Below, one piece after another: positions 3,426-20,609 of a stretch of 64,000 bases of DNA; the first letter of the stretch is position 1; each line of letters starts with the position of its first letter. The translations under genes and the position numbers were made by a program. The stretch is from NCBI RefSeq assembly GCF_900108505.1, contig NZ_FNWU01000002.1, positions 124,001 to 188,000 on the forward strand. The letters are read 5' to 3'. Origin of the DNA: Halopenitus malekzadehii (GTDB lineage: Archaea; Halobacteriota; Halobacteria; Halobacteriales; Haloferacaceae). The notes below the pieces were generated by a model. That model was not told the DNA's origin, did not search any database, and saw nothing but the letters and a program-made list of their open reading frames with translations.

Positions 3426-4266
3426 CTGTGGCTCCGGTTATCGGGATGAATAGCGTTCCCACCGGTTTGGCAGTAGCGATCCGTTCCAGCACGTCCCGGT
3501 CCGCCGAGTTCGCGATGATCGCGGGCGTGCCGTGCTCGCTCACGTCGCGTGCGCCCTCGACTTTGGTCAGGATGCCGCCGAATTCGTCGGTCGTGCTGTC
3601 GTCGACGAACGACTGGACGGCGTCGTAGTTCGTGCCGACTGCCTCGATCAGTTCCGCATCGTCGTCGTCCTTCGGATTGCCGGTGTAGACGCCACCGACG
3701 TCGGTCAGGGTCACCAGCAGATCGACGTCGACGCCGATAGCGACCGATGCCGAGAGCATATCGTTGTCGCCGATCTGGATCTCCTCGGTCGCGATCGCGT
3801 CATTCTCGTTGATGATCGGTACGATTCCCCAGTCGAACAGCGTCTCGATGGTGTTACGAACGTTCGTGAACCGCTCGGGGTTGGCCAGATCGTGCTCGGT
3901 CAGTAGAATCTGTGCGACCGTCTGGTCGTAGCGGTCGAAACTCTGTGTGTAGTGGCGCATCAGGTGGCTCTGTCCGACGGTCGACAGCGCCTGGCTCTCC
4001 TCGACCGTCTCGGTCACCTCGTCGATCAGCCCTTTGCCGGCACCGACTGCGCCGGACGAAACCAACAGGACGTCCTTCCCACGCTCCCGGAGGGCCATGA
4101 TGTCGCTGACGAGTTTGTCGAGTTTCACGCGATCGAGTCGGGAGTCCGCGTCAGTCAGGGAGTTCGTCCCCGCCTTAACGATCACACGCTGGGCGGCGGC
4201 GGCCTGATCGCGTGCCTGCTCGACGGTCTCTTCGTCGATGGGCTCGATCACCGACTGATCACTCAT
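3418..4266 (-). CDS. proB: Glutamate 5-kinase (ProB), without PUA domain
   Basis: Phosphorylates glutamate to gamma-glutamyl phosphate, the first and normally feedback-controlled step of proline synthesis. 282 aa from ATG 4266 ([11 protein letters not shown]). The longer open frame to 4497 is the antisense-rich shadow of proC and is rejected. Amino-acid kinase fold motifs: [12 protein letters not shown] at the N-terminus, [37 protein letters not shown] and [15 protein letters not shown]. It lacks the C-terminal PUA domain of E. coli ProB, as expected for a short form. Overlaps proC by 8 bases upstream and proA by 8 bases downstream. Confidence 0.95.
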
Positions 4267-5035
4267 CGCCGAACTCCTCGGCGAGTTCGCGGGACCGCTT
4301 CTCGGCCGCTTCGACGGCGTCGACGACCGCCGCATCGGCATCGCTGTCCCAGAGCACCTCCATCCCCTCGATGGTCGTCCCGTTGGGCGAGCAGACGGCG
4401 TCGATGAGCTCCGAGACGCTGCGATCGTCCCGGAGGACCGTCTCGGCCGCGCCTTTGAACGTCTGGGCGGCCAGCGTCTCGGCCTGCTCGGGATCAAGGC
4501 CGCCGTTGACGCCGGCCTCCTTCATGGCGTCGATGAGGTAGAAGACGAAGGCCGGGCCGCTGCCGTTGACTGCCGTCGCCACGTCCATCAGCTCCTCGTC
4601 TATCTCGACGAACTCGCCGACTGCATCGAGCAGGTCCCGGACGTCGTCGTCGATCCCCTCGTGGGTGGCTGCGGCGGCCATATCGCCGGTCTCCGCCGCC
4701 AGGTTCGGCATAATCCGGACGACCGTCGCGTCCGTCTCGCCGGCGACGAACGACCGCGGGACGCCCGCCGCGATGGTGACGAGCGACTGGTCCGGCCGGA
4801 GATCGAGATCCGAGAGCACTGCGGAGACTGCCTTCGGTTTGACCGCCAGAACGACGATCTCGGCCTCCCGGGCCGCGTCGATGTCGTCGGTCGTCCTGTC
4901 CGCGTCGTCGGCGACTGACGCCAGCGCCTCGGGATCGAGGTCGATAGCTGTCACTTCGTAGGCTCCGGTCCGGGTGAGTCCCTTCACGAACGCTCCACCC
5001 ATATTCCCGCAGCCGATAACGCTCACGTGTATCAT
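4259..5035 (-). CDS. proC: Pyrroline-5-carboxylate reductase (ProC)
   Basis: Last step of proline synthesis: NAD(P)H-dependent reduction of pyrroline-5-carboxylate. 258 aa from ATG 5035 ([14 protein letters not shown]). An in-frame start at 5071 would add 12 residues that do not match the family. N-terminal Rossmann motif GCGNMGGAF, then VKPK (about residue 70), ITIAAGVP-like [25 protein letters not shown], and the C-terminal signature region [25 protein letters not shown] with [10 protein letters not shown] and [11 protein letters not shown], which are typical of the dimerisation domain. First gene of the proC-proB-proA operon. Confidence 0.96.
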
Positions 5036-5129
5036 CCTATTTAGACAGAGGGGGATTGAGGTACATACCAACTACGGCTTCGTTCGAGCGACGGCCTGTC
5101 GGGGGCGCCCTTCGTTCCACTACGGAGAA

Positions 5130-5159
5130 ACTCCCATCGTATCTTCGGCTACGATGAGT
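5130..5159. terminator. Hairpin between the helicase and proC genes
   Basis: The arms actcccatcgta (5130-5141) and tacgatgagt (5150-5159) pair with a two-base bulge around a tcttcggc loop. It lies 65-95 bp past the stop of the helicase gene and about 95 bp before proC, all on the minus strand. It could end the helicase operon or sit in a proC leader. There is no clear oligo-T run, so confidence is low. Confidence 0.3.
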
Positions 5160-5223
5160 TACTATCGCCGTATCTGGTTTATGGCGGTCCTCGATCCTCG
5201 CCGCCAATCGATCGTGTGGCCGA

Positions 5224-8200
5224 CTACCGATCGAGTCTGGAGAGTCGGTGCTCGACGACCGACGGGGGCCAGGGTGAGGTGATCGTCTCGCGCTCGCGGC
5301 CGAACGTTTCGACCGATCGATGGACCCCTCGCCCGCTCGACTGCCGTTCGAAGAGGAAGGCGTACGTCGCGACCTGCAGCTCGTACCGTTTGCGCGTGTC
5401 GGAAGTCAGCGCCGCCAGCGAGATCTTCAGATCGGCCACGTGTCGTTCCCCGGCCGGCGTCTCGACGACGACGTCCGCGGTCCCGTGGATCTCGACCTCA
5501 ACGTCGCCGATCGTGGCGAGTCCGTCGACCGGCTGCTCGACCCTGACCGTCTCGGCGTCCCCGATCAGGGCCCAGAGATCGGACGCCACGAAATCGTCGA
5601 GCACCGCCCGATCGAGGAACCCGAACAGGGCATCGCGCTCGTCCGCGCCGACGTGCGGTGCCGTCTCGGTGAGCGTCTCGTCGAATATCTCCCGCACGAT
5701 CGCGTCCCGTTCCCGGATCGTCGTGCCGGAGACGCTTCGATCGATGAGCGTCGTCAACACGTCGTGCAGACACCTGCCGACGTCGCCCGGGCCGAGTCGA
5801 TCGAACGGGAGCGGATGGTCAGCCGGAACGTCGTTCGCCGCCGTGTGCAGGGCGTTGCCGAGCAGATGGGGAATCACGTACTCGTCGGGGCGTTCGGTCA
5901 GCGGATGGAGGGTGCTCGGGCGGAGGAACCGCGGCAGCCACGGCTCCAACGTCGCGGTTCGGGGCGGCGTCACGGCGACATCGGCGTCGGCTCGCGTCGG
6001 CGTTCCGTCCGGCGTCCACCGAGCGCCCAGCGCGACGTCGTTGACGCCGATGTCGATCGGAGCCGTTCCACTCGCGGAGTCAAGCGTATACGTCCCGGTC
6101 CGTTCCGTGGAGAACCCGAGCTGCTGCCGGATCGTGTCGAGCCACCGGTCGCGTGGTCGAGGGTCGTACGGCACCGTTCCTGGAAGCGGTACGACGAGGT
6201 GATCTCTGGTGCGCGTGAGGGCGACGTACAGCAATCGCCACTCCTCGGCGCGGTCGTTCGCGGCGACCCGCCGAAGTCGATCGGGCCCGACGAGCAGGTC
6301 GGCGCCGGCTTCGTTGATTGAGACGTCAACGACGTCATCCCGCCAGCGTGCCGTCATCCACCGCAGACCGACGTCCGGGTCCCGGGTGTCGGACGGGTCG
6401 TAGATGCCGTTTCGGTACCCCGGCAGCGACACGTCGATCGAGACGTCGACGTTCGTCGGCGGGGCAAGGGCTGCACGCGTTCCCTGCGTCACGGATCGGT
6501 TCGATCGGACGCCGTTCCGACTGATCTCGAACCCGGGATTGGCGAGCACGACGACGTCGGCTTCGTCGCCTTTCGCGTCGTGGATCGTGCGGAATTCGAC
6601 GTCGTGATCGGCGCCGGTAACGCTCGGCTGGGACGGGCCGAGACGCGGGCTGTCGCGGAAGGGATCGACGAGATCCGTGAGCTCCCGGGGCGGGAGGTGG
6701 TCGTCCGCCTCCCACTGCGCGATCGTCGCCGTGAGGGCGTCGAGGTTCGCAACCCGTTGTGCGGCGTCACGATCGGGGGCCAGATCGGCCGGGTCCGCCC
6801 GGAGTCCCAGCGCCTCGATGACGTCCTCCACGTACGTCGATGCCGGCCGGGAGAGGACGGCGTCACGACGACGTCGAAGCGTCGCAAGCCCCTCGAGAAG
6901 GTGTCCCTGTGCCGTCGAGAGATCGCACGCATCGAGCACGTGGCCGAGGGCGCCGTCGTGGGCGTCGACGGCATCAGCAAGCGTCCGGTCATCGATCGGG
7001 TCCTCGGTGAGGAGACGGCGCGTCCGTGCCGGATCTGCAGGCGCGATCAGCCACTCACAGACGGCGAGCACCGCGTCGACGGCGTCACACGCGAACAGGT
7101 TCCGGCTCGCGTTCCGCACGCGGAGCCCCGCCTCGGCGAACGCCTCCTCGTACGCCTCCATCCTCGACGACCACCTGAACAGCACGTCGATGTCGAGCGG
7201 CTCGCCGTCGCCGTCCGTGAACGTGCCGTCGCCGAGCCCCTTCGAGACCAGCGTCGCGACCGCCTCGGCCTCGCCGCGCCCCTCGACCGGGCGACACCAC
7301 GTGTACGAGTCCGGATCCGAATGCATCGGATCGAACGCCGCGATGTGAACGTTGGTCCCGGCGGTCGGCTCCCGGAACGCGTCGAGTCCGGGATACGTCA
7401 CGTCCAGATCGCCGATATCTCCGCGATCCGGATCCGTGAGCACCGGGTCGGCGATCGCGGAGATCGCGGCGGCGACGTCGGGACGACATCGGTACGTCGT
7501 CGTCGCCGTCCAGTGTTCGTGCGTGTCCCACTCGACCCCGAGATATCGGCCGTCCCGGATCGCGGACTCGAACAGCTCGGGGTCGGCGTTTCGCCACCGG
7601 TAGATGCTCTGCAGCAGGTCGCCCGAACAGAACACCCGCGTCTCCGTCGTCACGAGATGTGCAAGCGCCGCGTGCTGGATCGCGGACACGTCCTGTGCCT
7701 CGTCGATGATTAGGCTCCGCATCCGCGTTCGGTACCGCTCGCGAACCCGGACCCGATTCTCGTCGTTCTCATCCCCGATCCGTCCCTCGAAGTACGCGTC
7801 GATCAGGGCGGCCACGTCCGTATGCGACACCACACCTCGATCGCGGATGGCGTCCCGGTATGCCTCACGGTACCCCGACAGCACGGCACAGAAGTCGTCG
7901 ACACGGTCGACCCACTCCTCGTGAAGCCGTGCGTCGGCGGCGACGACGTGCCGGCGATCCGCGTCCGTTGGTGCCGCATCGCCAGCACCCTCATCGACGC
8001 CATCCATGTCCGCATCTGGATCTACATCTGGATCTACATCTGAACCTACATCGACATCGCCGCCGACGAATCGGCGGATCGCGTCGAGAACGTCGTCACC
8101 CGACGCCGGCTGCCCTCCGGGATACACGCTCTCGATCGTCCGTTCCAACTCCCGTCGTACGTCGGCGGTGGAGAGCCGCCTGTCCCGACAGTACGCGACG

Positions 8201-8781
8201 GCGGTTTCCAGCAGGTCGGCAACGCCGTCTCGGTATTCCTCGTCCGGATACGCCGCCTCCAGCCTGGAGAGGCGGTCCGTAAGCGCCGGATCGCGCCGGA
8301 CCGTCTCATAACACGCGGTGTGCACCCGTCGCAATCGGGCCTCGGATCCGACTGCCGGCATCCCCTCGAAGCCGACGTCGTGGGCGATCTCCTCGAAAAC
8401 GGTCCGCAGGACGCCGTCGATCGTTCCGGCGAAGGAGGCTCGTTGCACCCGTTGCGCCAGGTACTCGAGTTCGCGATCCGAGATCCGGTCGGCGGCCGGG
8501 ACGAGCTCGTGGTCGACGATCGTCCGGAGGCGATCGCGGATCGCCGGGACGATGTCGGCCGCCTCCCCACGGGTGAAGGACACGACCGCGACGTGCTGTT
8601 CGGGCGTGCGATCCCCGTTCACGTACCGGGTGAGAAGCTCCTCAGCGGCGAGGTGATACGCGACGACGGATTTGCCCGACCCGGGAACGCAATCGAGCGT
8701 GAAGAGACCTGCATCGTGGGCGACGTACGCGTCCCGGATCGCGCGCTGTGCGCCCCGCAGTCGGATCGGCTCGTCGGTCAT
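5224..8781 (-). CDS. UvrD/AddA-like helicase with C-terminal PD-(D/E)XK nuclease
   Basis: 1185-aa superfamily 1A helicase fused to a RecB-type nuclease. Motif I CVPGSGKSVVAYH is near residues 30-40, motif II LIIDEAQDVSAIQHA, motif III GDLLQSIYRWRNA, motif V region EFRTIHDAKGDEADVVVLANPG, and motif VI LLYVALTRTRDHLVVP. The last 250 residues hold a nuclease: GTADVVVETPAGERHVADLKIS (the Asp and Asp-x-Lys pair) followed by YELQVATYAFLFE, the QxxxY motif. An acidic Asp-Pro/Asp-Val repeat linker sits near residue 250. The start at 8781 (MTDEPIRLRG) leaves 25 bp after the previous gene; an in-frame start at 8829 would overlap it. It is the last gene of an operon with two AddB-like genes, suggesting double-strand-break end processing. 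Confidence 0.88.
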   Translation of the reverse strand: MTDEPIRLRGAQRAIRDAYVAHDAGLFTLDCVPGSGKSVVAYHLAAEELLTRYVNGDRTPEQHVAVVSFTRGEAADIVPAIRDRLRTIVDHELVPAADRISDRELEYLAQRVQRASFAGTIDGVLRTVFEEIAHDVGFEGMPAVGSEARLRRVHTACYETVRRDPALTDRLSRLEAAYPDEEYRDGVADLLETAVAYCRDRRLSTADVRRELERTIESVYPGGQPASGDDVLDAIRRFVGGDVDVGSDVDPDVDPDADMDGVDEGAGDAAPTDADRRHVVAADARLHEEWVDRVDDFCAVLSGYREAYRDAIRDRGVVSHTDVAALIDAYFEGRIGDENDENRVRVRERYRTRMRSLIIDEAQDVSAIQHAALAHLVTTETRVFCSGDLLQSIYRWRNADPELFESAIRDGRYLGVEWDTHEHWTATTTYRCRPDVAAAISAIADPVLTDPDRGDIGDLDVTYPGLDAFREPTAGTNVHIAAFDPMHSDPDSYTWCRPVEGRGEAEAVATLVSKGLGDGTFTDGDGEPLDIDVLFRWSSRMEAYEEAFAEAGLRVRNASRNLFACDAVDAVLAVCEWLIAPADPARTRRLLTEDPIDDRTLADAVDAHDGALGHVLDACDLSTAQGHLLEGLATLRRRRDAVLSRPASTYVEDVIEALGLRADPADLAPDRDAAQRVANLDALTATIAQWEADDHLPPRELTDLVDPFRDSPRLGPSQPSVTGADHDVEFRTIHDAKGDEADVVVLANPGFEISRNGVRSNRSVTQGTRAALAPPTNVDVSIDVSLPGYRNGIYDPSDTRDPDVGLRWMTARWRDDVVDVSINEAGADLLVGPDRLRRVAANDRAEEWRLLYVALTRTRDHLVVPLPGTVPYDPRPRDRWLDTIRQQLGFSTERTGTYTLDSASGTAPIDIGVNDVALGARWTPDGTPTRADADVAVTPPRTATLEPWLPRFLRPSTLHPLTERPDEYVIPHLLGNALHTAANDVPADHPLPFDRLGPGDVGRCLHDVLTTLIDRSVSGTTIRERDAIVREIFDETLTETAPHVGADERDALFGFLDRAVLDDFVASDLWALIGDAETVRVEQPVDGLATIGDVEVEIHGTADVVVETPAGERHVADLKISLAALTSDTRKRYELQVATYAFLFERQSSGRGVHRSVETFGRERETITSPWPPSVVEHRLSRLDR
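8010..8056. repeat. 12-bp in-frame tandem repeat inside the helicase gene
   Basis: The unit tggatctacatc (and the variant tgaacctacatc) is repeated about three times. Because 12 is a multiple of three, it encodes an Asp-Val-Asp-Pro linker without shifting the frame; the repeat sits between helicase motifs and probably varies in length among strains. Confidence 0.7.
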
Positions 8782-8806
8782 CGATCGCCTCCACTTCGGG
8801 TCACGG

Positions 8807-10117
8807 TCATCGATCGCCTCCGTCCTCACGACGACCCTCGGCCGTCGCTCCTCGATCCTCGACGATCTCTCGGAGCGGCTCCGGAAGCCTTCGATCCGGA
8901 CTCACCAGTCGATGCAGTGCGTCGTCGTCGACCGCGGTCGGGTCGAGCTGGTCGAGGAGCGGCGACCGGCGGCGCGGGTCGCCGTCCATCGTCTCGGTGT
9001 GTCGCGTCAGGACCAGCCCGCGGCCGGCTGCCCGGCAGGCGTCGTCGAACTGGTCGCGGTCGCGCCCGTCCGTCCACGCGGTTCGCGGGGCGAGCGTGCT
9101 CGTGCCCTCGGCGCCCGCGAGAACCGCCTCCTGTAGCTCCGGCGGGATCGGGCTCTCGCTCGTCCGCGGCCACTCGCCGTCGACGAGGCCGACCACGACC
9201 ACGTACGGGACGTCGAGCAGCCAGACGTCGTTCGCCTCGAGCACGTCGACGGCACGTGCGTTCGAGTGTTCGCGGCGTCCGGGACGCTGCGTGGCGATCA
9301 GCCGGGCGAGGTCCGCGACGTCATCCCACGACTGCGTGAGCGTTCCCTCCGCGATCCGGTCCGCGTATTTATACGGGAGCTGCCGAACGAGTGCTTCGAG
9401 GCGGACCACGGCACGGGCATCACGCTCCGTCTCGATGAGTGCCGGTGAATCACGCGCCTTCGTGGCGGGAAGCCCCGCCCGCTCGTAGGCGTCGACGACG
9501 TCGCCGAACACGGCCCCGACGGCGTCCGGCGACGGGGCCGGACGCGACCGCATCCACTCGACGTACGTCCGGATCCGGTCGTCGACGGAGGGCGTCTCCG
9601 AGAGCGTCTCGGCCCACTCGTCGATCGTCCGCCGGTCCGCCGGAAGCGCCACGAGCCCGTTCCGGATCGTCCGCGGGTCGAGCGGCCACGCCGTGCTCGA
9701 GTCGGCCCGGATCTCGTCCGAGTCCGCGGCCGAAGCCGGGTGGGAGATGTCCGGCGGACACCATCCGTGTTCGAGCGGGCGGCAGAGCGCCTCCGCGTCG
9801 AGGTCGGTTGCGGCGAGGACCTTACACACGGCTTCGAGGAGTGCGAACGGCGTGGTTCGAGTCACACGCAGCTGCGTCCAGAAGACCGGTGTGGCGCCGT
9901 ACTGTACCGCGGCGCGGTACAGCGGTTCCTCGTACTCGTCGAGATCGCGTGCGACGACGGCGACGTCACGCACGCCGACACCCGCACCCCGGAGGGCGGC
10001 CACGGTGGCCATCGCGCTTCGGGCTTCCGCCCTTCGCGTCGTTGTCACCAACTCCACGGCGGGGACGTCGGCGCCGGGAAGCGGGTCCGCGAGCGCGAGG
10101 CGATCGGCCGACGTCAC
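8807..10117 (-). CDS. AddB/RecC-like protein, C-terminal part (second of two genes)
   Basis: 436 aa starting at GTG 10117, which overlaps the stop of the upstream gene by 4 bases (GTGA). The sequence resembles the second half of AddB/RecC-type inactivated helicases: VELVTTTRRAEARSAM, then VRDVAVVARDLDEYE, a mid-region TPFALLEAV, and the late motif VWLLDVPYVVVVGLVDGEWPR followed by GLVLTRHTETMDGD. I see no Walker A and no PD-(D/E)XK nuclease or iron-sulphur cysteine set at its end, unlike bacterial AddB. It lies between the AddB N-terminal-like gene and the helicase-nuclease gene, so all three probably form one complex. The family call rests on motif resemblance. Confidence 0.6.
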   Translation of the reverse strand: MTSADRLALADPLPGADVPAVELVTTTRRAEARSAMATVAALRGAGVGVRDVAVVARDLDEYEEPLYRAAVQYGATPVFWTQLRVTRTTPFALLEAVCKVLAATDLDAEALCRPLEHGWCPPDISHPASAADSDEIRADSSTAWPLDPRTIRNGLVALPADRRTIDEWAETLSETPSVDDRIRTYVEWMRSRPAPSPDAVGAVFGDVVDAYERAGLPATKARDSPALIETERDARAVVRLEALVRQLPYKYADRIAEGTLTQSWDDVADLARLIATQRPGRREHSNARAVDVLEANDVWLLDVPYVVVVGLVDGEWPRTSESPIPPELQEAVLAGAEGTSTLAPRTAWTDGRDRDQFDDACRAAGRGLVLTRHTETMDGDPRRRSPLLDQLDPTAVDDDALHRLVSPDRRLPEPLREIVEDRGATAEGRREDGGDR

Positions 10118-10917
10118 GGCTCGAACACCACCGCTCCGGGCGCGTCGACGTCGAACAGATCCGGCAATCGCCGGGCGAGGTACGGCCCGGTGCCACGACG
10201 GAGATGGAGGTGTGTCTCCACCGACGCCCGATCCAGCAGTACGTGGAGGAGGTCGACGTACACCGCCGACACGCTACTCACGCCGACGAACGAGACGCAC
10301 GTCACGTCGGGGAACGCGCTCCGCCAGGCCGTCCCGTCCGTGTCCCGAAGCGTTCTGATCGCCCGTCGAACGAGCGCGACGTCGGAGACGTGTGAATCGG
10401 TCCGTTCCCGAAGGCTCCGCTCGATGTCGACGGCGGCGTCGATGCGTTCGCGCGCGTCGGCGTCGATGGGGGCGTCGATCGTCCCCGCGGCGTCACGGAG
10501 GCGCCGAAGACGTGCGGGGTGAAAGCCGGTCACGTTCTCGATCTCCGTTCGGAGCTGCTCGATGGCCCGTGGCTCCTCGGGGGCTCCCGGACCGATCGAC
10601 GATCCGGATCCGTCGGTGTGAATGGACCGAACCATCGAGAGCCGGTCGATGCGGTCGATGCAGTCAGTGGACGGTCCCAAGCCGTCGGCGTGGCCGAGGA
10701 GCCGCACGCCGACGTCGGCCGGATCCGCGAACTCGATCCCGTCCTTCGGCGCGTGTGCCTCCCGCAGCCGTCGCTGCACGTTTCGTCGATGGAGTTCGAC
10801 CGGCGTGAGGACCAGCTCGGTCCCCGGCGACCCGTCACGGAGCCGCTCCAGGAGCGACTCCTCGTCTCCCACGTGGAGGGTGAGATCGGCCGGGAGTCGT
10901 GCGTGTGGGATGGACAT
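10114..10917 (-). CDS. AddB/RecC-like protein, N-terminal part (first of two genes)
   Basis: 267 aa, ATG at 10917. The opening region LHVGDEESLLERLRDG, then LVLTPVELHRRNVQRRL, and FADPADVGVRLL follow the pattern of AddB N-terminal domains, where a Walker A loop would normally sit; here none is visible. The last part, DVTCVSFVGVSSVSAVYVDLLHVLL, matches the strand-helix pattern that ends domain 1 of these proteins. It overlaps the next gene by 4 bases. It could be a natural split of one AddB-like protein into two chains. No promoter box is obvious just upstream. Confidence 0.55.
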   Translation of the reverse strand: MSIPHARLPADLTLHVGDEESLLERLRDGSPGTELVLTPVELHRRNVQRRLREAHAPKDGIEFADPADVGVRLLGHADGLGPSTDCIDRIDRLSMVRSIHTDGSGSSIGPGAPEEPRAIEQLRTEIENVTGFHPARLRRLRDAAGTIDAPIDADARERIDAAVDIERSLRERTDSHVSDVALVRRAIRTLRDTDGTAWRSAFPDVTCVSFVGVSSVSAVYVDLLHVLLDRASVETHLHLRRGTGPYLARRLPDLFDVDAPGAVVFEP

Positions 10918-11269: not shown

Positions 11270-12406
11270 TCACTCCGACGGGGGCGTCGCCGCCGCCGCC
11301 TCGCCGTCGTCCCGCTGTGTCGCGACCGCCGCGCGCTGCAGGTCGTCGATCCGGGGGACGTCGGTGACGTTCGAGAGGACGACGAGCGCTTCGAGCGTGG
11401 ACGACCGATCGCGGGGGTCGTCGCCGGCCAGGATCTCGACGGTGTCGGCCTCCTCCTCGAGCCACTGGCGAGCGCTCTCGAACCCGCGCCGGGAGAACGC
11501 CGACGGCGGCCCGGACAACACGACCAGCGCCCGTTCCGCGCTGGCGACGTCGCAGGGAACCGTCAACCGCGACGTGGTCGCCTGCTGGACGAGCGAGTTG
11601 ACCTTCGCGGCGTCGGTCGTCCGGTCGGCCGGCTCGTCGGGATCGTACCCGAACCACGACAGCAGGCGGGCGAACAGCCCCGCCCCCCCCGACACCACGT
11701 CGGTCGTGGCGTGGCCGATCGAGACGATCCCGCCCGGCTCGAGGGTCCGAACCACGTCGCTCGAGTCGACCGCGTTCTCGGCGATCGTGTTCGAGTCGCG
11801 TTCGCCGGCGGCGAACAGGGTACAGATACGCCGTGCGAGCGCCCGCGTCGCGTCCTCGCCGTTCTCGGCCTCCGGTTTGAGCCAGGCGTCGTGATCGAAG
11901 GTGATCGTGCTTGCCGCCGCCGGAACGATGGTCCGGATCGCGCGGGCGGCGTTGAGCGCCGCCGCGTCACCGTCCTCGTCGGCCGGCAGAACGCCGAGCG
12001 CGTATACCGGTTCGTCGTAGGTCGCCTGCAGTTCCTCGACGAGCACCGACCCGGCCCCGCTGCCGGTCGCGCTTCCGAGTCCCGCGGCGACGAGGACGCC
12101 GTCGGCGTCGTAGACGTCGATCGCATCCAGCGCACGGCGTATCTCCGGCAGATCGCCCCGCGTCACCTCGGCGGCGATGTCGGGACCGCCATCGACGCCG
12201 TCGACCGTGACCTGCGGATGGGTGTCGCCGATCAGGACGCGCCGGTCCTCGGGAACCGTCTCGACGTCGTCGGTCGGCGACCGGGAGATGTCACAGACGA
12301 TCGCGTTCCCGCCGGTGAACGTGCGGCCGGTTTCGGCCTCGATCTCCCGGATGCAGTCGACGACCCGACTCCCGGTGGCGCCGACGCCGACGAGTGCGAG
12401 CTCCAT
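11270..12406 (-). CDS. CetZ-type tubulin/FtsZ-family GTPase, divergent paralogue
   Basis: 378-aa CetZ-like protein of the tubulin/FtsZ superfamily, cytoskeletal GTPases that control cell shape in haloarchaea. It opens with ALVGVGATGSRVVD. The glycine-rich tubulin signature is altered to GLGSATGSGAGSV, while the T7-loop region NAVDSSDVVRTL keeps the N-x-x-D-S-S-D pattern of its neighbour. Late motifs ALVVLSGPPSAFSRRGFE and EILAGDDPRDRSS match those of the upstream paralogue. Second gene of a two-gene operon, 3 bp after the stop of the first. The altered glycine loop suggests weaker or specialised GTP binding (inference). Confidence 0.87.
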   Translation of the reverse strand: MELALVGVGATGSRVVDCIREIEAETGRTFTGGNAIVCDISRSPTDDVETVPEDRRVLIGDTHPQVTVDGVDGGPDIAAEVTRGDLPEIRRALDAIDVYDADGVLVAAGLGSATGSGAGSVLVEELQATYDEPVYALGVLPADEDGDAAALNAARAIRTIVPAAASTITFDHDAWLKPEAENGEDATRALARRICTLFAAGERDSNTIAENAVDSSDVVRTLEPGGIVSIGHATTDVVSGGAGLFARLLSWFGYDPDEPADRTTDAAKVNSLVQQATTSRLTVPCDVASAERALVVLSGPPSAFSRRGFESARQWLEEEADTVEILAGDDPRDRSSTLEALVVLSNVTDVPRIDDLQRAAVATQRDDGEAAAATPPSE

Positions 12407-12409
12407 CGG

Positions 12410-13591
12410 TTAGACGACGGGGTCGAGGTCGTTGTTCTCGTCGGTGATCAGGTCGTTGATCTCCTCCTCGCGGACGGCCTCCTGCTCGGCGATCTTCTCC
12501 TGGGCGTCGACCGCCTGGTTCTGGATCTCGTTGATCCGCGGGGTCTCCGTGACGTTCGAGAGGAGCACCGCCGCCGCGAGCTGGGGGGATTTCCCTCGCG
12601 GATCGTCGCCGACGAGCACCTCGACGGTGTCCGCTTCCTGTTCGAGCCACTGGCGCGCGCTCTCGATACCCTTCCGGGAGAACTCGCTTGGCGGCCCCGA
12701 GAGGACGACGAGCGCGCGGTCGGCGCTCGAGATCTCGGCGGGCACCGTGAGCCGGGAGTTGACCGCCCGGCGGACGAGCCCCTGGATCTTCGTCGCCTTG
12801 CTGCCCTCGTCCGCCGACTCCGCCCGGTCGGTGCTCCAGCGGTCGAGCAGGCCGCCGGTGGCGGCGTCGTTGTCCACCTCGGTGGCGGCGTAGCCGATCG
12901 TCGAGACGCCGCCGGTGTCGAGCGTCCGGATGATGTCGCTTGAGTCCATCGCGTTCTCGGCGACCTCGGAGTCGTCCGTCTCGCCGGCCGCAAGCAGGGT
13001 CACGAGCCGGGCCGCGAGCTCGCGGTTCATCTGCTCGTATCCCTCCTCGATCGTCTGTTCGCGGGCGCGCCAAGCGTCGTTGTCGAAGCCGATGAAGTTG
13101 TCGACCTTGGTGACGAACGACTGCAGCGACCGGGCCGCGTTCAGCGCCGGGCGGCCGCCCTCGTACTTGCCGGGCAGCACGCCGAGCCCGTAGACCGGCT
13201 CGTCGTACATCTCCTGGAGGGTGTCGATCACGACCGGACCGCCGCCGCTGCCCGATCCGCCGCCGAGTCCCGCGACGACGAGGAGGGCGTCGACCTCGTG
13301 GATCTCGACGTCGTCGAACGCGCGGCGGATCTCCTCGATGTCGGCCTTCGCGACCTCGGCGCCGACCTCGACGTCGCCGCCGACGCCGTGACCCTTGGCT
13401 TTCTGGTTCGTGTCGCCGATGAGGACGCGCCGGTCCTCGGGGATGTAATCCGGCTTCGCGAGGTCCGTCCGCGCGGTGTTGATCGCGTGGACGTGCTGAC
13501 AGAGGTTCCGATCGGTTTGGGATTCGAACTCGAGCATCCGGTCGACGATCTTGCTCCCGGCGTTCCCGACGCCGATCGTGGCGAGCTTCAT
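12410..13591 (-). CDS. CetZ-type tubulin/FtsZ-family GTPase
   Basis: 393-aa CetZ family protein. N-terminal nucleotide loop ATIGVGNAGSKIVDRM, tubulin signature GLGGGSGSGGGPVV (about residues 105-118), LGVLPGKYEGG, and the T7 loop NAMDSSDIIRTLD, which supplies the catalytic acidic residues to the neighbouring subunit in polymers. C-terminal segment VVLSGPPSEFSRKGIE and VLVGDDPRGKSP. First gene of the tandem pair. CetZ proteins are known in Haloferax to control cell shape and motility; which CetZ subgroup this is cannot be assigned here. Confidence 0.9.
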   Translation of the reverse strand: MKLATIGVGNAGSKIVDRMLEFESQTDRNLCQHVHAINTARTDLAKPDYIPEDRRVLIGDTNQKAKGHGVGGDVEVGAEVAKADIEEIRRAFDDVEIHEVDALLVVAGLGGGSGSGGGPVVIDTLQEMYDEPVYGLGVLPGKYEGGRPALNAARSLQSFVTKVDNFIGFDNDAWRAREQTIEEGYEQMNRELAARLVTLLAAGETDDSEVAENAMDSSDIIRTLDTGGVSTIGYAATEVDNDAATGGLLDRWSTDRAESADEGSKATKIQGLVRRAVNSRLTVPAEISSADRALVVLSGPPSEFSRKGIESARQWLEQEADTVEVLVGDDPRGKSPQLAAAVLLSNVTETPRINEIQNQAVDAQEKIAEQEAVREEEINDLITDENNDLDPVV

Positions 13592-15879: not shown

Positions 15880-16995
15880 ATGCCGCTTCGCCCAGCCGAC
15901 ACCGACCTGCTCGGGGAGATCGCCATCTCCATCGCGCGGGAGAACTACGGCTTTCTCTACGTCGACCGCGTGACCGAGGAGATCCGGGACCGATACGAGT
16001 CCGCGGACACCGGGCTGACGAAGGCGAGCAGCCTGAGTCGCTCGGAGATCAAGGAGTCGCTCCAGGAGATCGCCGGGCAGGAACACGAGGACTTCCGGCG
16101 GATCCGGTCGGGCGTCTACTACTATGACCTGTTCTCGACCGGTCACGACAATCGGGTCCCGAACCGACTCAAGGACCTGTTTCTGTCGACCCAACAGGTC
16201 GTCACCGCCGAACAGATACGCAACGAGTTCAACCTCGCCGTCGACGACGTGGAGTTCTTCGTCGACAAGCTGGTCTCGAACGACATGCTCTTCCGGATCG
16301 CGGCGGGCTCGCGGGAGTACTACTCGGTCGGGTCGTTGCTGAAGGAGCAGACGGGACAGAACCGGCTCGAGGACGAACTCAGGGAGCAGTCGCGCGGCAG
16401 CGAACCGCTGGGCATCCTGTCGCACGACGAGCTCGAGCAGATCATCTCGGTCAACGCGACCACCGACGTCATCCGATATCTGGAGGGTCAGCTCGGATTC
16501 CTTGCCGATCTCGACGGCGAATATCTGGTGTGGGGCGCCCTCGAGGACTACGGCCGGTGGATGGCCGAGGAGATCGCCGACGACGTGGTCGCGGAGTTCG
16601 ACGACGTCGGTCACGCGATGCCCACAAGCGAGTACCGCGAGGTCGTCACCGCCCGGATCGAGGGGCGGACGGACATCCTCGAGAACGTCAGCCGGGCTGA
16701 ACGCGACGACGTGATCGACGCGGTCGAGGAGGGCCTCCAGGCGGTCGTCGACGTCGACGTCGACGGCCGGATCGCGGTGCACCGCGAACCACTCGTCGAG
16801 GAGATCGACGCCCACGCTGAGAAGATCGTCTCGCCGCTGCTTGCCGACACCGCCGCCGCGACCCCCTCGGTGATGAAGGAGGAAGCCGAAGCCGAGATCG
16901 AGGGGCTCCGGCTCGCCGACAGCGAGGAGGCGAACCGCTACCTGAGAGAACAGGTCCGCGAGCGGGCCGACGCCAAGATCGAGGAGGCCTTTTAA
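15880..16995 (+). CDS. Tandem winged-helix-like protein, first gene of the AAA+ operon
   Basis: 371 aa from ATG 15880 (MPLRPADTDLLGEI); the earlier in-frame start adds 14 unlikely residues. I do not recognise a named family. By eye there are three successive winged-helix-like units: about residues 8-90 ending in FRRIRSGVYYYDLF, about 95-150 (STQQVVTAEQIRNEFNL to FRIAAGSREYYSVG), and about 175-225 (ILSHDELEQIISVNATTDV to DLDGEYLVWG), each ending in a beta-wing-like strand pair. The C-terminal third is helical and acidic. Tandem winged helices occur in ESCRT-II and in other scaffold proteins, so a structural or adaptor role is a guess. Gene 1 of a tight operon; the next ATG is 3 bp after the stop. 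Confidence 0.75.
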   Translation: MPLRPADTDLLGEIAISIARENYGFLYVDRVTEEIRDRYESADTGLTKASSLSRSEIKESLQEIAGQEHEDFRRIRSGVYYYDLFSTGHDNRVPNRLKDLFLSTQQVVTAEQIRNEFNLAVDDVEFFVDKLVSNDMLFRIAAGSREYYSVGSLLKEQTGQNRLEDELREQSRGSEPLGILSHDELEQIISVNATTDVIRYLEGQLGFLADLDGEYLVWGALEDYGRWMAEEIADDVVAEFDDVGHAMPTSEYREVVTARIEGRTDILENVSRAERDDVIDAVEEGLQAVVDVDVDGRIAVHREPLVEEIDAHAEKIVSPLLADTAAATPSVMKEEAEAEIEGLRLADSEEANRYLREQVRERADAKIEEAF

Positions 16996-16998
16996 CCA

Positions 16999-18015
16999 AT
17001 GCGAACCAGATTCAGCGACTTCACGACCAACGAACAGAACGGAACGACCTTCGTCACGGCGGTTCCCCAAAGCAGCGCGGACGAGCCCGTCCGTTTCGAC
17101 GCGAGCATCGCCGATCAGGGTTCCGACGACGACCCGCAGGCCAACTGGGAGGAGATAATCGCCACGCTCGCCCAGGGACACCTCGGTAACGAACTGCTGA
17201 TCGAGGGGGGACGCGGCGTGATGGACAAGGAGGTCGCCATCGAGGCGCTCGTCGAGTCGGACGCCGAACACGTCCGGAACGAGCACGCCGCCCACGCCGT
17301 CCTCGAGTACCTCGACGACCAGGACATCGTCTCCATCGACGGCGAGGAGGTCGTCGTGTTGCTCTCCTACGAGCAGATCCGTGAGGAGGGATCGAGCTCG
17401 ATGCTCAACAACTGGGCGGCGACCCTCGACGCCTGCGTCGAGCGGATCGACTCCGCGATCGAGCGGGTCAAACAGAACCAGGAGACGCTCCAACAGCACT
17501 TCGAGGACCTCTCGGACACCCAGAACCTCGAGCAGGAGTACGCCCAGAAGGCCGACGAGCTGAAACAGGAGATGAAGGGGCTGCTGGCCGGGCGGATGCC
17601 CTCCGAACTCGCCGACGACGAGAAACGGCGGTTCGAGATGCTCCGCAAGCGGTACCACCGCTACGAGATGTTCGAGGAGAAGGCCGCCTCGCCGGTCGCG
17701 GAGACGCAAGGACCGGAGATCCTCGGGGCCGTCGTCGAGGACATGGAGAACATCAAGCTGCTGTTGATGGACCAAAGCCAGGAGTTCCGCAAGCTGGCGC
17801 TCTCGGAGAACTTCACCGAAAGCGGCGCGCTCCAGGACCTCGAGAACCTCGAGAGCTTCGTCGCGGAGTTCGGCGACGTCACCGAGCCGAGCGAGCAGAT
17901 GGAGGAGAAATCCGACGACGAGTTCGTCGAGGATCTGTTCGATATGCGCGAATCGACGACCACCGAGGAGGTCCAACAGCTTGACGAAGACGCGACGCTC
18001 GAGACGACACGGTAA
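16999..18015 (+). CDS. Winged-helix plus coiled-coil protein (ESCRT-III-like organisation?)
   Basis: 338 aa, unknown family. A disordered start is followed by a winged-helix-like unit at about residues 49-125 (NWEEIIATLAQGHLG to DIVSIDGEEVVVLLS). Then come long charged helices with coiled-coil character at about 133-280, including NQETLQQHFEDLSDTQNLEQEY, and a Glu/Asp-rich C-terminal tail from about 290 (MEEKSDDEFVEDLFDMRES). A helical core followed by an acidic tail with a short hydrophobic motif is how ESCRT-III/CdvB proteins are built, and their tails bind the Vps4 AAA ATPase. A AAA ATPase is encoded two genes later. This is resemblance of layout, not a demonstrated homology. Confidence 0.72.
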   Translation: MRTRFSDFTTNEQNGTTFVTAVPQSSADEPVRFDASIADQGSDDDPQANWEEIIATLAQGHLGNELLIEGGRGVMDKEVAIEALVESDAEHVRNEHAAHAVLEYLDDQDIVSIDGEEVVVLLSYEQIREEGSSSMLNNWAATLDACVERIDSAIERVKQNQETLQQHFEDLSDTQNLEQEYAQKADELKQEMKGLLAGRMPSELADDEKRRFEMLRKRYHRYEMFEEKAASPVAETQGPEILGAVVEDMENIKLLLMDQSQEFRKLALSENFTESGALQDLENLESFVAEFGDVTEPSEQMEEKSDDEFVEDLFDMRESTTTEEVQQLDEDATLETTR

Positions 18016-18021
18016 GGCGGG

Positions 18022-18780
18022 ATGTTCGCTGCATCGTTCCTCGGGACCTTGCGGCACGCACGGAACCGGACCACGGCGGAGCTGCGGAAGCGGCGGTATG
18101 ACGACGCCGACGACGAGGCCTGGCGCGTCGTCGAGGACGCCCTGGATGCGGTCTGTGACCTCGTCGAGCTGAGCCTCCATGGCGTTCCGCTGCCGCCGGC
18201 CGCCGCAACCGGCGGGACTGCCTCACGGGACGCCGACGAGGCGATCGCGGCGCTCCTCGACCGGCGCTTCGAACGCGATCCCTGGAGCGACGGGGATCCC
18301 CCGCGGCCACCGACTGCCGCGGTCGAGACCGAGGACGAGAACGGTGACGAGGCTGAGGACGTTGATGAGGGCGAGGACGGTGACGGCACCGAGGACGGTG
18401 ACGAGGCCGGGAGCGACCGTGAGGACCTGGCTCCCGACCGGATCGAAACGGTGGCGGGGACGACGATCGTGCCGCTATCGAGGACCGGCCCGCGGGCGGC
18501 GAACTGGGACGTCCTCTTCGATCGGCTGGTCACCCACGCGATCGCGGTGACGACCGAGTGTCGAAAGCTGGCCGGCAGACAACGCATCGACGGCGCCACC
18601 GACCTGGCGGCCGCCTGGGAGGGCGTCGCGGACCTGCTCGGCGATCTCGCGTCGTTCATCGCGTTCGTCCGCCGGGCGGCCGCCTGGACGAACGACCCGG
18701 ACCCGGAGACGATCGACCGCTCGGAGGCCGCGTTCTCGGCCGCCCGGGCGTTGACCGACGAGACGACGACCACGACATGA
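18022..18780 (+). CDS. Uncharacterised protein with Asp/Glu-rich linker
   Basis: 252 aa, no recognised family. An N-terminal helical part (about residues 1-85) and a C-terminal helical part (about 145-250, including NWDVLFDRLVTHAIAV and WEGVADLLGDLASFIAFV) are joined by a low-complexity Glu/Asp/Gly linker. The GC-rich repeats in that linker are typical of slipping. Translation is tightly linked to the next gene: the AAA ATPase start overlaps this stop as ATGA. Probably a partner of the ATPase. Confidence 0.7.
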   Translation: MFAASFLGTLRHARNRTTAELRKRRYDDADDEAWRVVEDALDAVCDLVELSLHGVPLPPAAATGGTASRDADEAIAALLDRRFERDPWSDGDPPRPPTAAVETEDENGDEAEDVDEGEDGDGTEDGDEAGSDREDLAPDRIETVAGTTIVPLSRTGPRAANWDVLFDRLVTHAIAVTTECRKLAGRQRIDGATDLAAAWEGVADLLGDLASFIAFVRRAAAWTNDPDPETIDRSEAAFSAARALTDETTTTT

Positions 18781-20609
18781 CACGGAACAATCTCAACCCG
18801 ATCAAGACCGACGATCAACCGACGTCGCACATCCGCGTCGGGGCGAGCAAGGTCGGCGCCGACGCCGAGCTCGTCGAGGTCATCCACAACGACCGGAGCG
18901 CGTACTTCCGCGTCGAGACCGAGGACGACCAGATCGTGAGCAACATCGGCAACAAAGCCTACATCAACGCCAACGTCGAGCACCTCTTCGGCGGGATCGA
19001 CTTCTCGGGCGGGGACAAGTTCGTCGTGGACGGCAACGCGAGCCTCGCGTCGGTTCCCGCGGCGGACTCGGCGACCATCCACCCGAAGACGGTCGCGCCG
19101 GACGTCCTCGAGGAGTACCTCCGGTCGGCGGAGTACCTCCTCCACCGGATCGAGGAGGTCGCCGAGATCCGGGGATCGCTCGTCCGGTTCACCGTCTCCG
19201 AGGCCGACCCCGGCGCCTACTCGACGCTCCGGATCACGGAGGACACCGACCTGGAGTTCGTCGACGAACCCGCGGAGCCGCCCCAACAGCCGGCCGGCGC
19301 GCGCGGCGGCGCGGGGCAACGCGGCGGTCCGGGCGCCCCCGGTGGACCGGGTGGCGGTGCGGGCGCCCCCGGCGGTGGCGGCGAGCGACCGGACGAGGGG
19401 ACGACCGTTTCCATCGAGCCGACCGTCCCGACCGTGAACCTGGAGGAGGACGTCGCCGGCCTCGAGTCGGTTAAGGAAACGGCACGAATGCTGCTTGCCC
19501 TCTTCGACACCGAGGTGCGCGACCGGATCGTCGAGATGTACGGCGAGGAGTTCGCCGAGCGCGGCGGCAGCATGTTGTTGTACGGTCCGCCGGGCTGCGG
19601 CAAGACGCACGTCTCGGAGGCGATCGCCCACGAGGCCAAACACGAAACCGGGATCGAGGACCAGTACGGCGAGGTGGTCTTTCTAGAGATCCGCGGCAGC
19701 GACATCCAGTCGAAATACGCCGGCGAGGCCGAAAAGAACGTGAGCGCCGTCTTCTCACAGGCCCACCGGATAGCGAAGGAGGAGGGGTTCGCGGTCCTCT
19801 TTTTCGACGAGATCGAGACGCTCATCCCCGACCGCAGTGACGACAACCTCCAGCGACACGAACGCGCGTTGACGAACGCGTTCCTCCAGGAGATGAACGA
19901 CGTCGAGGACAACCTGCTCGTGATCGGCGCGACGAACATGCCCTTCACGATCGACCCGGCGGCGACCCGGCGGTTCCCGATCCAGCAGTTCATCGAACAG
20001 CCGGACGAGCGCGTGATGTCGGAGGTCTGGCGCACCCAGCTCGCCTCGCTGCGGAACACCGACGACATCGACTTCGAGCGGCTCGGCGAGGCGTCCGTCG
20101 GCTACACCCCGGCGGAGGTGGCCGACCGCATTCTCGGGAGCGACCTCCAGCGTGAGCTCATCCGCAGCGTGATCGAGGGCGATCCCCAGGAGGTGACCAC
20201 CGAGTACCTCCTCGACCGTCTCGAGGGGACCGAGCCGAAGACGGTCAGGCAGTACGTCTCGAGCGTCCGTGAGCAGCTCGACGACTTGGAGGGCTATCCG
20301 GAGATGCGCGATTACGTCCACGAACAGGCCGACGAGCTCGGGATCGACCTGCAGGGTGGTCCCGGCGCCGGCGGCGGCGCGCTCTCCTCGCTGCTTGCCG
20401 ACCAGGACGGGGGTACAGGCGAGGACGAGGGAGGGAGCGCGGCCGTGGGATCCGATGGTGGTGATGCCGAACCCGGTGACGGGTCAGCCGGGGATGGTGC
20501 GATCGGGGCCGAATCGGCCGAATCGGCCGGAGCGGGGTCACCCAGCCCGACCGGAGATGGTCCGGTCAGCAACGCGGGCACGGGCACGACCGATCGGGGT
20601 GACGAGTGA
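18777..20609 (+). CDS. Single-ring AAA+ ATPase with novel N-domain and Gly/Pro linker
   Basis: 610 aa. Residues 1-165 are a mostly beta N-domain of unknown family, followed by a Gly/Pro/Ala-rich linker (about 165-205). The AAA module has Walker A GPPGCGKT at residues 270-277, a pore-loop motif SKYAGEAEKN, Walker B VLFFDEIETL (about 338-347), sensor 1 IGATNMPFTIDP and the arginine-finger pair TRRF. This is the classic Cdc48/Vps4/katanin clade pattern with one AAA ring. A disordered Gly/Asp/Glu/Ser tail ends the protein. It would be expected to unfold or disassemble protein assemblies. No MIT domain is seen, which argues against a simple Vps4 orthologue. Overlaps both neighbours (ATGA before, TGATG after). 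Confidence 0.85.
   Translation: MTRNNLNPIKTDDQPTSHIRVGASKVGADAELVEVIHNDRSAYFRVETEDDQIVSNIGNKAYINANVEHLFGGIDFSGGDKFVVDGNASLASVPAADSATIHPKTVAPDVLEEYLRSAEYLLHRIEEVAEIRGSLVRFTVSEADPGAYSTLRITEDTDLEFVDEPAEPPQQPAGARGGAGQRGGPGAPGGPGGGAGAPGGGGERPDEGTTVSIEPTVPTVNLEEDVAGLESVKETARMLLALFDTEVRDRIVEMYGEEFAERGGSMLLYGPPGCGKTHVSEAIAHEAKHETGIEDQYGEVVFLEIRGSDIQSKYAGEAEKNVSAVFSQAHRIAKEEGFAVLFFDEIETLIPDRSDDNLQRHERALTNAFLQEMNDVEDNLLVIGATNMPFTIDPAATRRFPIQQFIEQPDERVMSEVWRTQLASLRNTDDIDFERLGEASVGYTPAEVADRILGSDLQRELIRSVIEGDPQEVTTEYLLDRLEGTEPKTVRQYVSSVREQLDDLEGYPEMRDYVHEQADELGIDLQGGPGAGGGALSSLLADQDGGTGEDEGGSAAVGSDGGDAEPGDGSAGDGAIGAESAESAGAGSPSPTGDGPVSNAGTGTTDRGDE

Follow-up and report, generated by a model that had tools for sequence, protein, structure and literature searches.

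The window, by which we mean the whole stretch of 64,000 nucleotides that was analysed, carries a compact three-gene cassette on its minus strand. The first gene, P1 (10114..10917, 267 aa, ATG start), encodes the N-terminal part of an AddB-like partner protein, that is, its first helicase-like half, and the second, P2 (8807..10117, 436 aa, GTG start), encodes the C-terminal half. The two genes share the four bases GTGA (10114..10117), in which the stop codon TGA of P1 and the start codon GTG of P2 overlap, so that translational coupling of P1 and P2 is probable. The third gene, P3 (5224..8781, 1185 aa, ATG start), encodes an AddA-like SF1A helicase with a C-terminal PD-(D/E)XK nuclease; an alternative GTG start at position 8829 would lengthen it to 1201 aa. 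These are exactly the open reading frames chosen by a codon-usage gene caller trained on the window DNA together with related haloarchaeal DNA, and the positions and the GTGA overlap given in the original prediction were borne out. In 41 of the 44 loci measured, P2 (or the fused gene found in its place) overlaps P3 by 4-50 nt, the three exceptions being the window itself, with a gap of 25 nt, L060, with 13 nt, and L043, with 140 nt, where the start was probably called late.

Directly upstream of the cassette lie two CetZ tubulin-like genes in tandem (11270-13591, minus strand). The three genes downstream, which we take to be proC, proB and proA, are kept in relatives. Further along, the plus strand holds a run of five genes (15880-23332), of which the first three gave no Pfam family match; the run includes an AAA ATPase (PF00004) and a PQQ-repeat protein, and its start is kept in genus-mates.

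P3 is AddA-like, with both its helicase motifs and its nuclease intact. It matches the Pfam families UvrD-helicase (E 2.5e-18), UvrD_C (1e-8) and PDDEXK_1 (3.1e-8), and the first PDB match of a 28-member P3 profile is the AddA chain 3u44_A (E 2.4e-31). The Walker A motif CVPGSGKS (aa 31-38, 8668..8691) has its G, G and K invariant in all 28 relatives, and motif II, DEAQD (aa 360-364, 7690..7704), is likewise invariant (28/28), as are GDxxQ of motif III, the arginine of motif IV, KG of motif V and the arginine of motif VI. The nuclease core, located by the PDDEXK_1 match and by conservation, comprises D1103, D1117-x-K1119 and Q1136-x3-Y1140 (5362..5475); D1103, K1119, Q1136 and Y1140 are invariant in the same 28 relatives and position 1117 is always D or E. 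P3 of the window itself was modelled with AlphaFold2, at moderate quality (pLDDT 80.9, pTM 0.69). The best four Foldseek matches of this model are AddA chains, with E values down to 4e-33, followed by RecB, while UvrD and AddA reach equal Z-scores of near 30. Across its entire length the model deviates from AddA by an rmsd of about 30 Å, probably as a result of a different placement of the nuclease. Against the curated AddA model of NCBIfam, TIGR02785, P3 scores 68.4 bits, far under the cut-off of 707.65. A C-terminal cysteine cluster (CxxC..C in the last 200 aa) was absent from P3 at every locus scanned. Pfam, profile, motifs and model therefore agree with the original description of this protein as a UvrD/AddA-like helicase of 1185 aa ending in a PD-(D/E)XK nuclease.

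The partner proteins are much less readily recognised. Neither P1 nor P2 has a match above the Pfam cut-off, no curated family recognises either of them, and in PADLOC the only family found was a weak match of P1 to PDC-S19 (E 0.029). Searching the PDB by sequence with the partner profile returned no AddB chain and nothing credible, and structure comparison was therefore needed. The partner profile does align with the longer AddB of other haloarchaea (hhalign probability 100, E 1.1e-43, 622 columns), the match spanning positions 2-709 of 1142. The fold was examined on a naturally fused homologue, L063, onto which the window's own proteins were placed by alignment, P1 corresponding to residues 17-260 and P2 to residues 288-709, at about 33-40% identity. 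The L063 model is confident (pLDDT 90.6, pTM 0.86), and its five best Foldseek matches are all AddB chains of AddAB. It superimposes on 4cei_B with Z 22.4 and rmsd 5.4 over 600 residues, covering AddB residues 2-718, and the match to RecC (Z 16.1) is clearly below this. Because the profile match ends at 709 of 1142 and the fusion model fits AddB residues 2-718, P1 and P2 together are the helicase-like two thirds of AddB, with the nuclease/iron-sulphur third missing. In our reading of the alignments, the cut between P1 and P2 would separate the first helicase-like half from the second. A Walker A motif is absent from the partner protein or proteins in 45 of 45 loci. Clustered C-terminal cysteines (CxxC..C, last 200 aa) were found in the partner at none of the loci scanned, the alignment retaining one single conserved cysteine column. 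The idea that the two small genes are the halves of an inactive AddB-type helicase lacking Walker A, nuclease and iron-sulphur motifs thus held up: the fusion model is helicase-like and has AddB as its best match, and homology to the long AddB stops at position 709 of 1142, leaving out the nuclease/iron-sulphur third.

We examined 46 compact loci, 45 of which entered the tree; L057, a fused locus cut by a contig end, was left out. The partner is split into two genes in 29 of these loci and is a single gene in 16, so that the fused AddB-like gene that had been proposed as something to look for in relatives does exist. The fused protein is about 670-713 aa long, and for three of the 16 the gene call adds an N-terminal extension (895-1001 aa). 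At all 29 split loci the junction between P1 and P2 is RTGA (ATGA in 11 and GTGA in 18), and 25 of these junctions were laid out base by base. The loci bearing this overlap come from six family codes and from separate assemblies. The Nei-Gojobori method gives dN/dS values of 0.13-0.44 over 8 pairs of P1 and of 0.14-0.35 over 9 pairs of P2, which place both genes under purifying selection. In two trees the fused loci (16 rows) group together as a single clade with support 100; at the resolution that the trees have at the base of the compact family, an early split followed by one re-fusion and repeated splitting would both fit.

Among known enzymes, the closest is AddAB (RexAB) of the Bacillus type, in which, as in the cassette, an AddA-like motor with a C-terminal nuclease stands beside an AddB-like, motor-dead partner, and whose subunits are the best Foldseek matches of the P3 model and of the fused partner model. 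However, AddB is a single polypeptide in AddAB, while the cassette has two genes in the window and in 29 of 45 loci and one gene in the other 16. AddB also has a C-terminal nuclease and iron-sulphur cysteines, both of which the cassette partner lacks. On the evidence so far the cassette would act in the manner of AddAB or RecBCD, but since the single-chain AddB and its nuclease/iron-sulphur domain are both missing, we call the cassette a variant of AddAB rather than a member. RecBCD resembles it in having a single nuclease for the whole enzyme and in having, in RecC, a dead helicase like P1 and P2 together. RecC is described as having an inactivated nuclease-like domain, and the loss of activity is argued to have occurred as RecC evolved from an AddAB-like state (PMC1185551). 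RecC keeps this domain as part of the machine, whereas P1 and P2 are without the region altogether, and here it takes two of the three proteins to make the equivalent of RecC or AddB. No RecD-like gene and no third motor gene belong to the shared cassette. AdnAB is an SF1 heterodimer in which both subunits carry a motor and a C-terminal nuclease. AdnA and AdnB are among the structural matches of the P3 and fused partner models, but the cassette partner has neither activity (no Walker A in 45/45 loci, no nuclease domain).

Double-strand break processing in archaea has been described around Mre11-Rad50 and HerA-NurA, a picture that the original prediction adopted and that needs amending, as haloarchaea also carry longer AddAB-like pairs. 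These longer pairs, which we term c-type and d-type, have the same AddB-AddA gene order and the same helicase-like region as the cassette; they differ from it in that the d-type AddB has both a nuclease and the cysteines and the c-type AddB has the cysteines and no detectable nuclease. The full-length d-type pair occurs in 56 of 292 genomes, about a fifth, and its AddB (1062-1071 aa) matches PDDEXK_1 (E 4e-36) and shows both a DYK motif and the CxxC..C cysteine pattern. An example with two nuclease domains lies at L098:7741-10929 and 4107-7748 (minus strand), with others at L096, L099 and L100. In L097 (G017:C1:1183866-1188464), from a genus-mate, the full-length AddB is interrupted and appears as frames of 862 and 262 aa about 1.4 kb apart. 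The c-type pair was found in 9/292 genomes (for example at L073:8429-11914, plus strand, and also at L071, L072, L074-L076, L093 and L094). Its AddB, of about 1150 aa, keeps cysteines of the iron-sulphur type and gave no Pfam nuclease match in either of the two proteins scanned; conserved C-terminal cysteines are present in both the AddA and the AddB of this type. None of the three pair types was found in 198 of the 292 genomes. Of the compact-cassette carriers, 12/44 also have a full-length pair, with no association between the two (Fisher p 0.15).

Our literature search, largely confined to journals readable without subscription, turned up no publication dealing with AddB in archaea or with AddB in split form. 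In the accessible portion of a review on Haloferax volcanii, end resection is assigned to Mre11-Rad50, HerA-NurA is described as absent from this organism, and the term AddAB does not occur (PMC7776575).

The cassette itself is patchily distributed. Matches to P2 were found in 53 of the 292 genomes drawn from the haloarchaeal class, and removal of eight genomes with a c-type pair only and of one with a remnant left 44 carriers. A phylum-wide search with query A1 gave 19 of 392 genomes, all matches falling within the family or order to which the window belongs, and a genome contig scan with query P0002 gave weak matches at two alphaproteobacterial loci (L035 and L036). The cassette lies on megaplasmids, a P2 relative being present in fifteen plasmid records that represent ten haloarchaeal genera; in two of these public records the partners are annotated 'hypothetical protein' and P3 'UvrD-helicase domain-containing protein'. 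A census of Rad50 through its zinc-hook family found 39 of 292 genomes and missed the control Haloferax volcanii, which has Rad50 (PMC7776575). As this family was uninformative, it was replaced by a full-length Rad50-like protein, which is present in 44/44 cassette carriers. Because the cassette occurs in only 44 of 292 genomes, is found on megaplasmids, is shared across families as a block bounded by its three genes and is always accompanied by a Rad50-like protein, it is accessory and horizontally moved rather than core resection machinery.

Comparisons between loci agree with this. The cassettes of L038 and L039, from different families, are 98.0% identical over 7.4 kb, against 75.9% for the radA regions of the same genomes, and those of L060 and L065 are 86.3% identical, against 78.9% for radA. 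Nineteen cross-family pairs with at least 70% identity across the cassette were counted, after the pair L054/L069, which aligns outside the cassette, had been dropped; they involve few loci and are not independent. In 14 of these 19 pairs at most 100 bases align outside the cassette, so the P1-P2-P3 block itself is the shared unit. A genus-mate whose DNA beside the locus is 95% identical has no cassette there and no P2 match, and the cassette is thus dispensable. Similarity to this genus-mate ends at window position 5127, just past the P3 stop codon, and the other flank of the cassette, from window position 11323, is found about 2.5 Mb away in its genome.

Taken together, we give a probability of roughly three in four to the reading that the cassette encodes a compact AddAB-type helicase-nuclease, with one motor and one nuclease, that resects or degrades DNA ends beside the Rad50 machinery. 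P1 and P2 would be produced together by coupled translation, would assemble into a motor-dead and nuclease-less AddB-like scaffold and would join P3 in a three-protein complex. P3 would bind the duplex DNA end, translocate 3'-5' as the only motor, by analogy with AddAB, and cut with the only nuclease, while the P1-P2 scaffold would hold and steer the strands, one of them passing through it. As the AddB nuclease is absent, the one nuclease may serve both strands, as in RecBCD, or one strand only may be resected. The resection or degradation of double-stranded ends would thus proceed alongside the resident Rad50 machinery, and its product may feed recombination or DNA may simply be degraded. Candidate roles would be repair and recombination, plasmid upkeep and the degradation of foreign DNA.

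A further step, on which we see the odds as even, is that the cassette represents a distinct haloarchaeal class of end-resection enzyme, an obligate heterotrimer of a motor-nuclease and a two-piece AddB standing at the end of a series of steps by which the second nuclease was lost, and carried as a mobile cassette. The loss would have led from a two-nuclease pair to a nuclease-dead AddB, then to a truncated AddB and finally to a split AddB, in parallel with the way in which the bacterial RecC nuclease decayed but going further, and the heterotrimer would spread as a three-gene mobile unit. Mobile AddAB-like enzymes would give archaea a second, transferable route of resection or degradation, bearing on gene transfer, plasmid stability and possibly the supply of CRISPR spacers. 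Forms with and without the AddB nuclease, split and fused, would also provide a natural series in which the contributions of the iron-sulphur domain and of a second nuclease could be compared.

The alternative that survives best, although we consider it doubtful, is that the cassette is primarily a defence system, Gabija-like or RecBCD-like, kept to degrade foreign DNA rather than for recombination. The patchy, plasmid-borne and horizontally shared distribution (44/292) is as expected of such a system, as is coexistence with another AddAB pair in 12 of 44 carriers. P3 shares a UvrD-type motor with GajB and matches the GajB models of PADLOC (E 1.9e-16), but the best stretch is confined to some 70 residues surrounding UvrD motif II. 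P1 and P2 have no PADLOC family beyond the weak PDC-S19 match. GajA, the OLD-type nuclease of Gabija, is not beside P3 in the window, where the neighbours are the CetZ genes and the three conserved downstream genes; the cassette has conserved AddB-like partners in its place. A UvrD-Cas4 fusion that also carries a RecB-like nuclease has been described (PMC5704561). For the surroundings of the 46 loci, 391 neighbours were clustered, giving 228 representatives of at least 70 aa; both PADLOC and Pfam were run on 80 of these, and Pfam alone on another 89. PADLOC matches in the 80 long families were sparse, with one to two members per family and mostly to PD-T4-6 and similar models, and the Pfam matches are to diverse metabolic and regulatory genes. 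Moreover, the cassette lies within a conserved gene context in two genera. On the 80 long families scanned with PADLOC, the neighbour genes do not favour defence. None of the phages and viral contigs searched had the cassette, which says nothing for or against this reading.

Three further alternatives concern the partner. Programmed -1 frameshifting at the overlap could fuse P1 and P2 into what is really one protein; P2 is indeed read in the -1 frame with respect to P1 at the RTGA junction of all split loci, and the natural fusions indicate that a fused form is workable. We nevertheless consider this very improbable, since no slippery heptamer was seen at the junctions inspected, the overlap codon is in every case ATG or GTG, which re-initiation requires, and at L051, L053 and L054 the open part of the P2 frame extends no more than 12-27 nt upstream, which leaves little room for a shift site. 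Still less probable is that the UvrD-nuclease fusion is a solo enzyme and that P1 and P2, found in no curated family, are accessory factors of it with no relation to AddB, given the profile match to the long AddB (E 1.1e-43) and the preference of the fusion model for AddB over RecC (Z 22.4 versus 16.1). Least probable of all is that a frameshift or a sequencing error has cut a single AddB gene in two, or that the gene is a pseudogene in decay. A single-gene form does occur in 16/45 loci and genome G078 holds a real remnant with 2 stops, but this reading is ruled out by the RTGA overlap, identical in 29 of 29 split loci that span six family codes and separate assemblies, together with the dN/dS values of both genes.

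Several incomplete or rearranged copies of the compact AddAB-type cassette were also seen. In G078, the P2 remnant (L136:7489-7797) contains two stop codons, and the cassette thus decays in some lineages. At L134:6110-6694 (minus strand) there is a 5' stub of P1 of about 133 aa, which looks like the outcome of an internal deletion of the cassette. The stub lies directly before a pair of genes of 224 and 231 aa, presumably a regulator and a nucleotidyltransferase-like protein, that resembles the pair following P3 in L055 and L056. Finally, at L068 (1-2403 and 9433-11540), P3 and P1-P2 are separated by about 7 kb in which other genes lie, an arrangement seen at no other locus.
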